DNA of 46,085 nt, taken from Myxococcota bacterium (GTDB lineage: Bacteria; Myxococcota_A; Polyangia; Polyangiales; Houyiibacteriaceae). Of the stretch, positions 1,152 through 43,664 are shown piece by piece. The stretch covers positions 1 to 46,085 of the forward strand of contig JAHDCI010000017.1 of the NCBI GenBank assembly GCA_020629955.1. Reading direction: 5' to 3'. The position numbers were made by a program, and so were the translations under genes. Each line of letters starts with the position of its first letter. The first letter of the stretch is position 1. The notes beneath the pieces are model-generated. The model saw only the letters and a program-made list of their open reading frames with translations, did not search any database and had not been told where the DNA came from.

Positions 1152-2140
1152 ACCATCGGCTCCTCGATCGAATCGAGCTCACTGGTGGGTTCCGCGGCCA
1201 GCTCTGGATCGTCTCCCGGCAACGTTACGCGTTCTTTGGGCTTCGGCTTCGGCTTCGGTTTTGCGACAGCCGCACTTGCGCTGCCGGGGCTCGTCGTTCG
1301 AGAGGACGTGGCGGGTTCCTTCGGCTTGTAGAACAGCCCAAAGAGCGCCTCCCGAAGCGAATCTCCATCGAGATTACGAACGATATTTCCGTTGAAGCAG
1401 AGGGAGACACTACCGCGCTCTTCGGAAACGACGACTGCGACGGCGTCCGTCTCCTCGGTGATGCCGATCGCCGCGCGATGCCGCGTCCCGAGGGAACGAT
1501 CGTGAGAGCCGCTGCTAAGCGGGAGCACGGCGCCCGCTTGCCAGACTCTCCCATCCCGAACGATCACCGCGCCATCGTGCATCGGGTTTTCAAAGCTCGG
1601 AATAAAAATGCTGTAGAGGAGCTCGCGAGTAACCTCCGCATCGAGCCCGGTGCCGGGTTCAATGAACTCTTCAAGAACAGCATCCCGTTCAAAAACGACC
1701 ATCGCACCGATGCGCTTTTGCGCGAGTTCCCCGGCAGCGCGAATGACCTCCTCGAGGACGGCGGTCTCTCGAGCGGTGCGAGAACGTTGGAAGAGCGACC
1801 CACGACCCATTCGCATCAAGGCACGGCGAATATCGGCTTGAAAGATCACCACGACGACAAGAACGAAGTTGGTGAGAAGTGAATCGTAAATCCGAAGGAC
1901 GCTGATGAGCCCGAGCTGCCGCGCGAAGAGATAGCCGACGACTCCGAGCCCTAGCCCGACGGCCATCTGCATCGCTCGGGTGCCCTTGAGCACGACGAGG
2001 CCCGCATAGATGAGCGCCGCGACAAGTCCAATATCGAGGCAGTCTCGGGCGATATCTCCTGCGCCGCGATCAAAGAACGCACCCATCCCGAGCGTGAGGG
2101 ACGACCACATCTCGACGAAGAACTCGATCACAGCATCCAC
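1148..2140 (-). CDS. cdaA: CdaA-type membrane diadenylate cyclase
   Basis: It makes c-di-AMP from two ATP. The 330-residue protein has three hydrophobic segments (about residues 35-51, 58-73 and 82-100) followed by a DisA_N cyclase domain. The two hallmark motifs are present: DGA at residues 189-191 (within H-D-G-A-V-I) and RHR at 220-222 (G-T-R-H-R-A-A). The start is GTG, one base inside the folP stop (TAGTG), and the stop overlaps cdaR. The family is usually about 270-280 residues; the extra length is a Pro/Lys repeat (KPKPKPKPK) and an acidic tail after about residue 272, probably disordered. No c-di-AMP phosphodiesterase is visible in the window. Confidence 0.95.
   Translation of the reverse strand: MDAVIEFFVEMWSSLTLGMGAFFDRGAGDIARDCLDIGLVAALIYAGLVVLKGTRAMQMAVGLGLGVVGYLFARQLGLISVLRIYDSLLTNFVLVVVVIFQADIRRALMRMGRGSLFQRSRTARETAVLEEVIRAAGELAQKRIGAMVVFERDAVLEEFIEPGTGLDAEVTRELLYSIFIPSFENPMHDGAVIVRDGRVWQAGAVLPLSSGSHDRSLGTRHRAAIGITEETDAVAVVVSEERGSVSLCFNGNIVRNLDGDSLREALFGLFYKPKEPATSSRTTSPGSASAAVAKPKPKPKPKERVTLPGDDPELAAEPTSELDSIEEPMV
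1239..1262. repeat. Short hexamer repeat coding the Pro-Lys run of CdaA
   Basis: About three perfect copies of the hexamer GGCTTC plus a partial copy lie inside cdaA. They encode the alternating Lys-Pro run in the C-terminal tail. Loss or gain of a unit would keep the frame. Confidence 0.7.
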
Positions 2141-2958
2141 TACGAAGCCTCCCCACAGGCGCCAAGCAGGGCAAGCGCTTGGGATGTCTCGAATACATCG
2201 TGAACCCGGACCGCAGCCGCGCCAGCTTGGGCCGCCAAAATCGCCGTCGCAAGACTGCCGCCAAGCCGCTCCGAAGGCGATGCAGGAACATGCAGATGCG
2301 AGATAAACGACTTTCGGGAGCTCCCAAAGAGCACCGGCAACCCTCCAGAGTACTCTGCGAGCGTGGAAACCAGCCGGGCGCTATCGCGTGGCTTCTTCGC
2401 GAATCCGATGCCGGGATCCACCCAAATGCGCCCCCGAGAAACCCCAGCATCCTCTGCCCGCTGAACAGCCTGCCGAAGTTCGAGACGCACCTCTTCGACG
2501 ACATCTTCATACGTCGTCTGCGCGCCTTCAATTTCCCCCCGACCACGGTTGTGCATGAGCACAAGGTCGCACTCGCCGTGCGCGGCGACAACTCTTAAGA
2601 GTTCAGGATCCGTACCGCCGGAGATATCGTTGATGATCGCCGCGCCCGCGTCGAGGCACGCAGCAGCAACCTCTGCGCGAACGGTATCGATGGAGAGACG
2701 CGCGGTCGCGGCGAGAGCCTTCACCACCGGGAGCACTCGCTGTATCTCCTCGTCGATCGAAACACGCTTCGCGCCATCCCCGTAGTCAGGGCCTTTCGGG
2801 CGGGAGCTTTCGCCTCCGATGTCCAGAACGTCGGCACCCTCCTCGAGCATCCGATGGGCGTGTCGCAACGCGTCGTCGAGCGCGTGATGCATTCCGCCAT
2901 CGCTAAAGGAATCGGGGGTGATATTGAGCACTCCCCATACTTCGCAAGGCCGATTCAT
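2140..2958 (-). CDS. folP: Dihydropteroate synthase
   Basis: It joins 6-hydroxymethyl-dihydropterin diphosphate with p-aminobenzoate in folate synthesis, in the cytosol. The TIM-barrel signatures are clear: VLNITPDSFSDGG near the N terminus, ADVLDIGGESSRP, INDISGG, LMHNRG, and the C-terminal RVHDV. I chose the ATG at 2958, which gives 272 residues, a usual family length. Upstream TTG (2985) and GTG (2970) in frame are alternatives, and no strong Shine-Dalgarno site decides between them. It lies 81 bases after ftsH and its stop overlaps the cdaA start, so it is the middle of the ftsH-folP-cdaA-cdaR run. ftsH next to folP is a known arrangement in many bacteria. Confidence 0.95.
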   Translation of the reverse strand: MNRPCEVWGVLNITPDSFSDGGMHHALDDALRHAHRMLEEGADVLDIGGESSRPKGPDYGDGAKRVSIDEEIQRVLPVVKALAATARLSIDTVRAEVAAACLDAGAAIINDISGGTDPELLRVVAAHGECDLVLMHNRGRGEIEGAQTTYEDVVEEVRLELRQAVQRAEDAGVSRGRIWVDPGIGFAKKPRDSARLVSTLAEYSGGLPVLFGSSRKSFISHLHVPASPSERLGGSLATAILAAQAGAAAVRVHDVFETSQALALLGACGEAS

Positions 2959-31015: not shown

Positions 31016-33688
31016 ATGATTCTGTTGTACAACATTAAAAGGTTGTCCCGTTTCGTTCCCTTTCAAGTACGTCCCGCGTGCGTCGCCGCGTTCGCGTTCG
31101 CGCTCGTCCACTGCGCAAACCTTGCCCACGCTCAGGACGCGGCGTTGCGGGTTGAGTCGGTCGAAGTGCGTGCGAGCTTCTCGGACGCCGGAAATCGAAT
31201 CCACGGCCACGCTCGATACGTCGTTCACTCGGAAGGCGGAAGCGCGCGCGCGTGGGTGTATAGCGCGCGACTAAGCCATGCGCCGAGCGCGATGGACGAG
31301 CAAAGCGCGCGCTGGATTTTTCCGCAGGAGCTCGACCTTGAGGATACCGAAAGCCAGATCCGGATCGACGGTCGCGAAATCGATTTCTCCGCGGAGGAGC
31401 AAACGGCAGGCGAGCCGGGGGGGATCGACACCCGAGGAAGAGACCTACGTTTTGAGGTTCCTGCAGGGCGCCGCATCATCGCGATTGAGTTCGAATACGA
31501 CTTGCCTCAACGTTACGGGCGCCTCGGCTGCGTCGGTCTCGTGTGCAGCGCACAGGCCCCCTGGTACCCGCTCCTTCTCAGCCCCGGCGGCGCGCCGATT
31601 CAAGCCGCAAGCGAACATGACGTTCGCGTCCACTACGAAGGCGAACGCCGACTGACATCGCTCCGCCCTTCCCGTGAGTTCGTCGGCTTCAGCCTCTCTC
31701 CCGAGTGGTTTCGCTATCCGATCCACACCTCTCGGCTCGACGTTGTGGTGTGGTCACCGGAGCCGCTGTACGAGCGCCCCGGAGCAGAGGTCCCGGCCAT
31801 CCTCGGGCTTCGAGACCTCGCAGCGTCTGACGTCCTCGGGCAGATCGCACAGGTGGTGGAGCACGCGGGTGCGACGCTTCACGCGGCGGACATCGCGCCG
31901 CGTCGAGCCCCGCTTCGGATCATCATGGGCACCTCCCGAACAGAACTCGCGGGGAATGCGCCAGGTGCAGTCTTGCTGAGTGACCGCGCCTTTGAGGTTT
32001 CTCCCCTCGATGACGTTCAGGCATTTCACCAGCGAGCGCTTCTTCGCGCCGTTTTCCGAGACCGAATCCCGCGATTTCGCGAACCCACAGAAGACGCCGG
32101 ATGGGCTCGTGACCTGCGCGCCGTCCTCCTCACAGACCTCGATGGGATCCGTCGCGAAGGCGGGGTTCGCAGCGCGCAAGAACTCTTGGGCTGGGCGGCA
32201 TTCCACCCCGCGATCGACCAGCTCCTCTACGCTCCACAGGTCGCTTTCGTCGATGTCTTTTTCGGTGGTGTCTCCGAACCCGATCCGTATCAAGACTCCC
32301 CCGATCGTGCGCGGATCCCCATCGCGAGCGGACGAAGAATCCTCGAGGGCGTCCGCGATCTGCTGAGCGAAGAAGAGATGGAAGCGTGGTCGCGAAGGCT
32401 GCTCCATGCGAACGCACCCGCGCGCGCTTCTCTGCGAGCGGTTTCTCCGGAAATCGCCGGCCGTCTTGACGCCATCCTCACCGGCCCGCTTCGCTCGCTA
32501 AACTATCGTCTCGGGGAGGTTGAGACCCGCCGAGATGGCGATGGCTACGTCCATCGAGTGCATCTTCATCGCGATGGAGACGACGCCCACGAGCCCGTTG
32601 AAGTCCGCATTCGCGCCGGGGAAGATGAGCTTATTGAAACCTGGGATTCCTCCGGAGCCGAAGGGGTCGTCGAATTTCAGACCTCATCGCCGATCGATGA
32701 AATCCAAGTCGACCCGCGCCGTCGTCGAGTTCAAAGCGCGCGCGCCGCAAATGGTCATCCGTACCGGGACGATACTGACAGTCTTCCTTGGCGCCCGCCG
32801 CTTTTGCAATCCTTGAACCTCTCGACTTCACCGGTAGAGGGAGCGTTCCTAGGCTTCATCGACTTTGCGCTCGCTCGCCGCTACGACCTCGAAAACCGGG
32901 TCGCGTTTCAGCTCTACACCGGTCCTCGCGCAACAGGCGGAATTATCCGGTACACGCGCGGAGTCGGCCCCAAACGTGACAACAACAACCGCGTTGGAGC
33001 GGTTTCGACCGGGCTGATCTTCGACCGCCTACGGGCCGACTTTTCCGAAGACGATATCGGCGGATGGCGAACCCGTCTCTTCCTCGCCGGCACGTACAAT
33101 ACGCAGCGCTATTTCCTTGATCCGCGAGGAGGATTTCTGCTCCGAGGCTCTCTCGATGCGGGCGTGAATCGCCGCGACGACGGTCGTACAACCTTCACTC
33201 TCACCCCCGTCCTGCATGCCTCTCTGAACGTTCGCACGGGTTTGCGGGGTGCGCTTGTCCTCGTGGCCGACCTCTCATACGCGTTCGGCGACCCACTCGT
33301 CTCTGAACTGCCCGGATTGGGTGGACGCTCTCGCCTTCGGGCATATCCGAACAACGCGTTTCTCGGCCGCGGACGCGGGTTTGTCGTCGCGGAGCAGCGG
33401 TTTACACCGAGCGCTTTTTCCAATCTTTCGATCAACCTCTTCAACACCGTGTGGATTCGCGAGATTCAGCTCGCAGTCTTCGCCGGCGCGGGGCTGAGCG
33501 TTCAACCACTCAATCGCGACGTCGACTTCGCAGGGGCTGCAGAGGTCGGTGGAGGCATTCGGATCCACTTCGAATACGGGGGCATTCAGCCCGCGGTGAT
33601 CTCACTCGATTGGGGCGTACCACTCGTTCGGCAAGACGAGCAGCTCCCGCGCGTATCCTTCGTGCTCTCGTTTGATCAGTATATCTAA
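31016..33688 (+). CDS. Outer-membrane beta-barrel protein with M1-peptidase-like periplasmic part
   Basis: An 890-residue exported protein, signal peptide to about residue 40 (cut after AHA). The large first part shows the beta-rich N-terminal style of M1 aminopeptidases (IHGHARYVV; PWYPLLLSPGG; VRVHYEG). It then has a helical stretch with HQRALLRAVF where HExxH would stand, so it is not expected to be an active zinc peptidase. It ends with a C-terminal immunoglobulin-like piece (EPVEVRIRAG). The last about 300 residues are a beta barrel, with alternating strands, the BamA-like GGRSRLRAYPNNAFLGRG, and a C-terminal FVLSFDQYI. M1 homology is inferred from pattern. A TTG at 31025 is an alternative start better spaced from GGGGAG. 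Role unknown. Confidence 0.78.
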   Translation: MILLYNIKRLSRFVPFQVRPACVAAFAFALVHCANLAHAQDAALRVESVEVRASFSDAGNRIHGHARYVVHSEGGSARAWVYSARLSHAPSAMDEQSARWIFPQELDLEDTESQIRIDGREIDFSAEEQTAGEPGGIDTRGRDLRFEVPAGRRIIAIEFEYDLPQRYGRLGCVGLVCSAQAPWYPLLLSPGGAPIQAASEHDVRVHYEGERRLTSLRPSREFVGFSLSPEWFRYPIHTSRLDVVVWSPEPLYERPGAEVPAILGLRDLAASDVLGQIAQVVEHAGATLHAADIAPRRAPLRIIMGTSRTELAGNAPGAVLLSDRAFEVSPLDDVQAFHQRALLRAVFRDRIPRFREPTEDAGWARDLRAVLLTDLDGIRREGGVRSAQELLGWAAFHPAIDQLLYAPQVAFVDVFFGGVSEPDPYQDSPDRARIPIASGRRILEGVRDLLSEEEMEAWSRRLLHANAPARASLRAVSPEIAGRLDAILTGPLRSLNYRLGEVETRRDGDGYVHRVHLHRDGDDAHEPVEVRIRAGEDELIETWDSSGAEGVVEFQTSSPIDEIQVDPRRRRVQSARAANGHPYRDDTDSLPWRPPLLQSLNLSTSPVEGAFLGFIDFALARRYDLENRVAFQLYTGPRATGGIIRYTRGVGPKRDNNNRVGAVSTGLIFDRLRADFSEDDIGGWRTRLFLAGTYNTQRYFLDPRGGFLLRGSLDAGVNRRDDGRTTFTLTPVLHASLNVRTGLRGALVLVADLSYAFGDPLVSELPGLGGRSRLRAYPNNAFLGRGRGFVVAEQRFTPSAFSNLSINLFNTVWIREIQLAVFAGAGLSVQPLNRDVDFAGAAEVGGGIRIHFEYGGIQPAVISLDWGVPLVRQDEQLPRVSFVLSFDQYI

Positions 33689-41610: not shown

Positions 41611-42540
41611 ATGCTCCTCGAACTTGAGAACGTAGAGAAACGCTACGGCGATTTGCTCGCCCTGAAGAATTTCTCGCTCGAGCTTCCCGAGGGACGCATC
41701 GGCCTTCTCGGCCCAAACGGGGCCGGAAAGAGCACCTTGCTCAAATCGATGCTCGGTTTGATTCAGCACGATTCCGGCACCGTGAAGGTCTTCGGCAAAG
41801 ACGTTGCGCGAGATCCTTTTGGGGTCCGCGCGCTCATCGGATACATGCCGGAGGGCGATAACGTGATGCCCGAGCTCAACGCGCTCGAGTACACCCGATT
41901 TGCCGCGGAGCTTTGCGGGCTTCCTGCTGCCGAAGCGACTGCACGTGCACACCAGGTGCTCCACTACGTCGGGCTCGGGGAGGCTCGTTATCGGCGATTG
42001 GGATCGTTTTCGACGGGGATGAAGCAACGCGCGCGCTTGGCGCAGGCGTTGGTCGGCGACCCCAAACTCCTTTTGCTCGATGAACCCACGAGCGGGCTCG
42101 ACCCTCGCGGCCGCGATGAGATGCTTCAGCTCATCTGGGATATTCCCCAGCGCACCGGCGCGAGTGTGCTGCTTTCGACGCACATTCTTCCCGACGTGGA
42201 GAAGACATGCGATCAGGTGATTGTCATCGCCGAAGGTGAACTGCTTTATTCAGGAGAACTCGCACCACTCATCGCCCAGGAAAAGGGTGTCTTTGAAGTC
42301 CGCGCGAAAGGGGAGTTGCGCAACCTCAAGGAAGCGCTCGAACGACATCGCTGCGTGGTGACCATCGAACGCTCCTCGCTTGTCGTGAGGGTGCCGGCCG
42401 ATATCCCACCCGAATCTGCTGCACGCTACATTCTGAAAGGCGCAATCGAAGAGGGTCTCGAAGTTCGGCACCTGGCGCCACTCGTGAAGACCCTTGAACG
42501 AGCCTTCATGAAGACCCTTGAGGACGCTGGGAAGGCGTAG
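41611..42540 (+). CDS. ABC transporter ATP-binding protein
   Basis: A 309-residue ATPase subunit of the export type. Walker A GPNGAGKST, signature STGMKQRARLAQAL, Walker B LLLLDEPTSGLDP and the H-loop LSTHI are all present. After about residue 215 there is an extra C-terminal domain of about 90 residues, common in drug- and lipid-type exporters. The permease subunit is not in the window. The next genes point the other way or are unrelated, so it acts with a partner encoded elsewhere. ATG at 41611, no strong ribosome site. Confidence 0.9.
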   Translation: MLLELENVEKRYGDLLALKNFSLELPEGRIGLLGPNGAGKSTLLKSMLGLIQHDSGTVKVFGKDVARDPFGVRALIGYMPEGDNVMPELNALEYTRFAAELCGLPAAEATARAHQVLHYVGLGEARYRRLGSFSTGMKQRARLAQALVGDPKLLLLDEPTSGLDPRGRDEMLQLIWDIPQRTGASVLLSTHILPDVEKTCDQVIVIAEGELLYSGELAPLIAQEKGVFEVRAKGELRNLKEALERHRCVVTIERSSLVVRVPADIPPESAARYILKGAIEEGLEVRHLAPLVKTLERAFMKTLEDAGKA

Positions 42541-42563: not shown

Positions 42564-43508
42564 CTACTCGACCCGCTGGATCGCAAACCCTTCGAGAATC
42601 TTCCCTCCGCGCACCACCTCCGCGGCAACGCTGCCTCTTCGTCTCGTCTCTCCACCCGCGAAATCGTGACAAGCATCCGCAAGCCCGAGCGCGATTCGGT
42701 CGAGCTGTCGGCAAGCTTGCTCCTGACCAAGAATCCGAAGCCGAACTTCTTCGCCAATCTGAAGAATCGCTCCCGCGGGCAACGCTTCGAGATCGATTCC
42801 ACGCGTTAGGATGTTCTCTCCAAGAGATCCTTCGCGCAGGGAGAAGCCCTGAGCATTCAGCCGGTCCAAGAATTCGCGCCCCAGGAGATGCACGGTATCG
42901 AGACGCGGCATAGCGCGAAACTCGAGCTCACCTCGACCACACCAAAGCACTGGGCCCATAAGAAGATCCGGGTCGCGTTCGATGCCCGTTCCGACGTGAA
43001 GATCAAGCCTTCCAGCATTCTCTAAGACCCTGCGAGCCTCCTGCGTCTTGATCGACTCCACGCAAGCCTCCCCACGAAGGTGGCGGACAATGTACTGGCA
43101 CTGCCGCTTTGGATACCCATCGAAAATCGCTTCGACCAGCCCATCCGCTCCAACCAGAAGAGTCAGGAATGTCGCGTTTGCATAGGCTGGAAACACCGGT
43201 CCTCCTCTCGGCTCCACCAAGAAATTCCACGGATAGCCAACCTTCTCTTTCCAGATCGCGAGGTCACGAATCTCGTTTCGGCTGATCGCCAAAACCTCGA
43301 CTCCGCTCGCCGCAAAATCTGGCCTCGCGTCGCGGAACGAATTGATCATTTGCGACGCCATGAAGTGCATTGCGCCTTTTCCGAAAAGATAGATCGCGAC
43401 CCGCCTGCCCCGGTAGTCGTGAAGGGAGACCGTGTTGCCGGATTGCGTAAGTAGCGAGAAAGCAGGCGCGACATCCCCAACGCGCAATGGACAAGGCAGA
43501 GCACTCAC
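42564..43508 (-). CDS. Peroxiredoxin-like domain fused to a MOSC domain
   Basis: A 314-residue protein with GTG start. Residues about 1-150 read as an AhpC/TSA peroxiredoxin-like fold: VGDVAPAFSLLTQSGNTVSLHDYRGRRVAIYLFGKGA, GVEVLAISRN and WNFLVEPRG. Lined up with bacterioferritin comigratory protein, the peroxidatic Cys position is Met50 (KGAMHFM-A-S-Q). Residues about 195-314 fit a MOSC domain: HLLGREFLDRLNAQGFS, GSLGENILTRGIDLEALPAGAILQIG, and QEQACRQLD with Cys266. MOSC domains usually carry or transfer sulfur or bind the molybdenum cofactor. The fusion and the missing Cys are odd; the substrate is unknown. Confidence 0.8.
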   Translation of the reverse strand: MSALPCPLRVGDVAPAFSLLTQSGNTVSLHDYRGRRVAIYLFGKGAMHFMASQMINSFRDARPDFAASGVEVLAISRNEIRDLAIWKEKVGYPWNFLVEPRGGPVFPAYANATFLTLLVGADGLVEAIFDGYPKRQCQYIVRHLRGEACVESIKTQEARRVLENAGRLDLHVGTGIERDPDLLMGPVLWCGRGELEFRAMPRLDTVHLLGREFLDRLNAQGFSLREGSLGENILTRGIDLEALPAGAILQIGEEVRLRILGQEQACRQLDRIALGLADACHDFAGGETRRRGSVAAEVVRGGKILEGFAIQRVE

Positions 43509-43664
43509 ACGTTGAGGATACGTCCGCCGGGGTTGAAAAACATCTGCGTTTCTTAAGCCGAGGAAGGCAGAGGGGTGCTCGGGAGGTCCGTCGTTTCAAA
43601 ATCCATACCCCAGGCTGTGCGAGAGAACTTGAAACCGGACGGTTTTCGGGAGAAGTTCCAGGGC

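Follow-up and report, generated by a model that had tools for sequence, protein, structure and literature searches.

An open reading frame in the window (the whole 46,085-nucleotide stretch of DNA analysed, from a Myxococcota bacterium) was initially annotated as a peroxiredoxin-like domain without its catalytic Cys, fused to a MOSC domain, and a new redox, sulfur-transfer or molybdenum cofactor (Moco) role was envisaged for its product. This raises the question of whether the two domains are correctly assigned, what each of them has lost, and which function such a protein could still perform.

The fusion gene and its genomic setting

Profile searches of the 314-aa protein supported both domain assignments, which had been made by reading sequence patterns: each half matched its Pfam family above the curated cut-off, i.e. 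AhpC-TSA at residues 10–102 (E 2.3e-14; 53.9 bits, cut-off 26) and MOSC at residues 206–307 (E 1.2e-8; 35.4 bits, cut-off 22.7). The features of the gene and its product are listed in Table 1.

Table 1. Features of the fusion gene and its product (positions in the window; residue numbers are those of the 314-aa protein)
Feature	Position	Strand	Details and evidence
Prx-like/MOSC fusion gene	42564..43508	minus	GTG start, stop included; 314 aa
Peroxiredoxin-fold domain, PrxQ/BCP type, active site lost (residues ~8–147)	43068..43487	minus	Pfam AhpC-TSA, AlphaFold2, Foldseek, alignment
Former peroxidatic loop (residues 43–54; GKGAMHFMASQM)	43347..43382	minus	Pro replaced by Gly43, Thr by Met47, Cys by Met50; also His48, Met54
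Phe114, replacing active-site Arg of PrxQ relatives	43167..43169	minus	Alignment A3, 100% Arg
MOSC domain (residues ~148–314), apparently lacking the first strand seen in stand-alone relatives	42567..43067	minus	Pfam MOSC, alignments, fold
12-residue insertion (residues ~187–198; VLWCGRGELEFR)	42915..42950	minus	Missing from other A4 rows; low model confidence
Asp204, replacing near-universal MOSC Arg (E. coli YiiM R55)	42897..42899	minus	Alignment
Glu263, replacing family Arg 3 residues ahead of Cys (E. coli YiiM R117)	42720..42722	minus	Alignment
Cys266, invariant MOSC Cys	42711..42713	minus	Alignments; likely molybdenum ligand in studied members (PMC10637980)

The gene stands alone, since both its upstream and downstream neighbours lie on the plus strand: an ABC-transporter ATPase gene ends at 42540, near the stop codon of the fusion gene, and a PilZ-domain gene begins at 43575, beyond its start side. 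A scan for promoters and terminators around the fusion gene gave no signal above chance. The adjacent segment 40892–42540 (plus strand) carries a DUF47/PhoU-like gene followed by the ABC-transporter ATPase gene. Elsewhere in the window, positions 31016–33688 (plus strand) encode an 890-aa protein with zero Pfam matches at E 0.001, whose C-terminal half resembles an outer-membrane barrel.

The in-frame codon score of the fusion gene (0.125) was close to that of the adjoining PilZ gene (0.126), and the other two minus-strand frames scored −0.15 and −0.20; codon use falls inside the interval spanned by the neighbouring genes, towards the lower limit. The source assembly is fragmented (5.6 Mb, 82% complete, 355 contigs) and holds no second copy of the gene, as might be expected if two genes had been joined artificially during assembly. 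Such a chimaera is unlikely, and we assign it a very slim chance: a single open frame runs over both halves inside a 50-kb contig, the joint coincides with the domain border (MOSC homology begins at about residue 148, right after the last helix of the peroxiredoxin fold), both halves carry unusual losses, and their G+C contents by codon position are roughly alike.

The N-terminal half: a peroxiredoxin fold without its active site

Residues 1–165 were modelled with AlphaFold2 (33 sequences; mean pLDDT 86.6, pTM 0.80), and a Foldseek search with this model retrieved Bcp1 (3drn; E 8e-13), BCP in 9a4d, 5enu and AhpE, which bears out the AhpC/TSA-like fold proposed for the first half. For comparison at the residue level we used alignment A3 (33 rows: the N-terminal half of the fusion protein and 32 PrxQ relatives). 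The initial annotation had placed Met50 at the position of the peroxidatic Cys, and this position was indeed occupied by Cys in all 32 other rows of A3. The loss of this Cys was thus correctly noted, but its extent was understated. The peroxiredoxin site consists of PxxxTxxC and an Arg (PMC5719442); these signature columns are 97–100% conserved among the A3 relatives, and the fusion protein carries Gly43, Met47, Met50 and Phe114 in place of Pro, Thr, Cys and Arg, respectively. With all four residues lost, the N-terminal half is no peroxiredoxin by known chemistry.

The substitutions extend beyond the active site. The fusion protein retains 14 of the 30 columns of A3 conserved at 85% or more (16 are changed), while the next lowest row retains 80% of them. 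The residues kept include G11, A14, P15, F17, G34, R59, D60, S76, T116 and G123, which we judge to be mostly residues of the fold. Identity to PrxQ/BCP proteins (e.g. 3drn, 5enu) over this half amounts to 21–31% and includes core structural residues; apart from the altered site, the fusion protein differs from them in carrying the MOSC domain. It also fell short of the NCBIfam PrxQ/BCP equivalog cut-offs (50.9 bits vs 140 for PRK09437.1, and 25.3 vs 260), although these are strict: the stand-alone relative L002 scores 137.6 and 168.3, respectively. The search for orthologues returned only stand-alone PrxQ relatives, in which the peroxidatic Cys is retained.

Cys residues of the 314-aa protein are located at positions 6, 137, 149, 190, 266 and 280, i.e. 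there are none between residues 7 and 136. It is scarcely credible that Cys6, Cys137 or Cys149, which do exist in the N-terminal half, has become the peroxidatic residue of a working peroxiredoxin: none of them sits in the pocket, their positions being the N terminus and the last helix of the fold or the stretch that follows it, and the Cys-activating Thr and Arg have been lost.

Thioredoxin-fold relays depend on thiols, and the fusion protein has no Cys pair, zero Cys in the loop, and neither the Thr nor the Arg. This makes it improbable that the peroxiredoxin part is a new electron-relay or peroxide site feeding the MOSC domain, by analogy with the flavin and 2Fe-2S domains of YcbX-type fusions. 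What speaks for such a relay is that MOSC enzymes use electron donors that are either fused or separate (PMC5818509, PMC10637980), and that human mARC is able to reduce H2O2 (PMC10489706).

The whole chain has only five internal Met residues, and three of these (Met47, Met50 and Met54) fall in the former peroxidatic loop. Random placement would put at least three Met within residues 43–54 with P ~4e-4, an uncorrected value for a feature chosen after inspection. Together with His48 these Met residues might form a new metal (e.g. Cu(I)) or Met-redox site that acts jointly with the Cys266 site of the MOSC domain, making the protein a new kind of two-site oxidoreductase or sensor; we consider this very improbable. 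The filling of an emptied pocket by hydrophobic residues explains the Met cluster as well as a metal site does.

Among 50 aligned relatives of the N-terminal half, one other row, outside A3, was without the peroxidatic Cys. This PrxQ-like protein (L068:1225–1968, minus strand) has Phe in place of the peroxidatic Cys (PKDDTPGFTVQA), retains the Pro, Thr and active-site Arg, and carries an apparent lipoprotein signal, recognized by eye. Judging from its sequence, it is a second Cys-less peroxiredoxin in the phylum, of another type than the N-terminal half of the fusion protein.

The MOSC half: a conserved Cys in an altered pocket

In a joint alignment of both halves MAFFT misplaced the relatives of the N-terminal half, and the halves were consequently modelled with separate alignments. 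The full-chain model built with 57 MOSC relatives is confident over residues 205–314 (block-mean pLDDT ~76–95) and unreliable over residues 1–200; for these two reasons the models say nothing about the packing of the domains. The best PDB matches of the MOSC half in Foldseek were YiiM (5yhh; E 3e-4) and YuaD (1oru; E 0.015), both with probability 1.00; the TM values were low, as the model is confident over no more than part of its length. Structure prediction therefore recovered the expected fold in this half too, in line with its original description as MOSC-like.

The MOSC relatives are small stand-alone proteins (~175–190 aa) found across Bacteria, with the motifs HRSRV...PNLRQVHL...GENI.TRGIDL...RNPC.QL...RKAGVM; their nearest solved structure by sequence is YuaD (1oru). 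The fusion protein shares up to 40–50% identity with them over the MOSC core. It retains (i) the D.H.G and TRGIDL..LP.G core, (ii) Asn232 (the Asn of GEN), Gln268, His171, Gly173 and Arg290, and (iii) Cys266, which aligns with a Cys present in all rows of alignment A4, in agreement with its initial identification as the MOSC Cys. In contrast to the stand-alone proteins, it has the 12-residue insertion, lacks the last segment (..LP..P...L..V) and, as far as the alignments tell, has a first strand that is missing or unrecognisable; moreover, HRSR (178–181), Asn202, Arg204 and Gln205, and Arg263-Asn-Pro of the relatives are replaced. Up to 38 of 76 family-conserved MOSC columns were changed; this is an upper figure, since at the start of the domain the alignment has slipped in columns 75 and 81 and at the Lys at 153. 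Columns near GEN and RNPC are over-conserved in loci L080–L159, as patterns placed on these columns were used to find the loci; alignment A2, whose 13 relatives were retrieved independently of patterns, gave the same picture of conservation.

Alignment with YiiM of E. coli MG1655 (6-hydroxyaminopurine reductase), with which the fusion protein shares the MOSC barrel, matched R55 with Asp204, A56 with Thr205, N87 with Asn232, R117 with Glu263 and C120 with Cys266. Apart from the fusion protein, 64 of 65 rows carry Arg in the R55 column; one of these 65 rows, that of the C331 gene, is to be disregarded, as it was translated in a wrong frame. In the model of YiiM with Moco, the phosphate is contacted by R55 and the pterin by N87 and R117, with C120 close to the molybdenum (PMC5818509). 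The contacts R55, A56, N87 and R117 of that model are not demanded of every MOSC protein. As acids now stand in place of R55 and R117, normal binding of Moco by the fusion protein is doubtful and its MOSC half may be inactive. Arg202 and Arg267, located two residues and one residue, respectively, from lost or key positions, could compensate for the lost Arg. The fusion protein also lacks the C-terminal three-helix bundle of YiiM, which in turn has no peroxiredoxin domain.

The loss of family-invariant residues of the cofactor pocket was missed by the initial annotation, which moreover described the MOSC domain as sulfur-carrying. This is an old label going back to a prediction of 2002; the MOSC proteins studied bind Moco, with the Cys as a likely molybdenum ligand (PMC10637980, PMC5818509), and their MOSC domain reduces N-hydroxylated compounds (PMC10637980). 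Moco should be available in the source organism, since its genome contains MoaA and MoeA genes. There are two other MOSC genes in this genome, one of which (L034/L163, G000:C1:15337–15675) retains the RNPC and NLRQ motifs and, with 70% of the conserved columns kept, diverges more than any member of the MOSC alignment except the fusion protein itself.

Distribution of the fusion

Among 159 loci, the only ones with both domains in one frame were the three that hold the fusion gene of the window itself. No second chain joining a peroxiredoxin to a MOSC domain was detected in ~580 Myxococcota genomes (relatives, the order, the class and an evenly drawn sample of the phylum), or among the viral contigs and plasmids searched. 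Two scans of 85,000 genomes gave no second fusion either: one used peptide patterns and is sensitive to close relatives only, and the other used the MOSC profile and is limited to the matches listed. No MOSC relative of the type seen in the fusion was detected in other genomes of the family, and none of the papers searched describes a peroxiredoxin–MOSC fusion. These results support the view that the peroxiredoxin–MOSC fusion is rare, and so far solitary.

Adjoining separate genes were considered as a source of the fusion. The only candidate, L033 of a same-order genome, comprises a small MOSC-like gene (1294–1848, plus strand) end to end with a gene for a Cys-keeping 1-Cys-type peroxiredoxin (1873–2781, minus strand); it was rejected as a precursor, the MOSC being of a different type and the two genes lying on opposite strands.

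Possible role of the fusion protein

The protein combines, in one frame, a PrxQ/BCP-type fold devoid of the peroxidase site with a MOSC domain of the small stand-alone type. The explanation that we favour, to which we give a little short of an even chance, is a lineage-specific fusion in which the peroxiredoxin fold, itself non-catalytic, gives structural support or a docking surface to a divergent MOSC domain. Having lost Pro, Thr, Cys and Arg, the peroxiredoxin part no longer performs thiol-peroxide chemistry; by elimination, it would most likely contribute to structure, dimerisation or partner docking on the MOSC barrel. It might be likened to MOSC_N in YcbX and mARC; in mARC, the MOSC_N and MOSC domains pack together and Moco occupies the crevice that separates them (PMC10637980). 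With Cys266, Asn232, His171 and Arg290 in place, the MOSC half is the likelier site of any remaining chemistry, possibly as a reductase of divergent type that binds Moco or a pterin and would receive electrons from a separate partner. The new role initially envisaged is thus possible, but we saw no sign of a redox function in the N-terminal half and known peroxiredoxin chemistry is excluded there.

The main rival to this explanation is that both halves are chemically dead, the product acting in binding or regulation (e.g. as a sensor of pterin or of the redox state, or as a scaffold) or the gene being on its way to loss. We regard this as doubtful, albeit with a substantial chance of being correct. 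It would agree with the loss of roughly every second family-conserved residue from each half (retention in the relatives has medians of ~0.97), with the charge reversal at two Arg of the YiiM–Moco model and the disappearance of HRSR, and with the branch of the fusion protein in the MOSC tree, which is extreme (length 10) and unreliably placed. The lack of a fusion orthologue in the searches made points the same way, and also counts against the explanation that we favour. On the other hand, Cys266, Asn232, Gln268, His171 and Arg290 are retained, the two nearby Arg residues could make up for those lost, codon use is neighbour-like and the frame is intact, with zero stop codons despite the many changes at family-conserved sites. 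Unconstrained change of 54 to 160 residues would be expected to produce ~2–8 stop codons (P of none ~0.1 to 5e-4), a rough estimate in which the share of change that followed the loss of constraint is assumed. Gene decay is possible.

As regards the docking-module explanation, no partner is known for most small MOSC domains. Other fusions resemble the present one in having a second domain in the chain, as in YcbX (MOSC_N and 2Fe-2S), Moco sulfurase (NifS-like) and the fusions with MoaB, MoaC and XdhC. Their partners, unlike the one described here, are catalytic, electron-carrying or MOSC_N, and a peroxiredoxin fold is absent from the architectures given in PMC10637980; such a fold would be a new partner for MOSC, and one with no evident electron-carrying group. 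Its retention after loss of the whole active site would be a clear case of a pseudoenzyme. As a single sequence, the fusion counts as a curiosity that poses a testable question, and not yet as a system. If orthologues were found to share its losses, it would reveal which parts of the MOSC pocket can be dispensed with and to what use a dead peroxiredoxin fold can be put.
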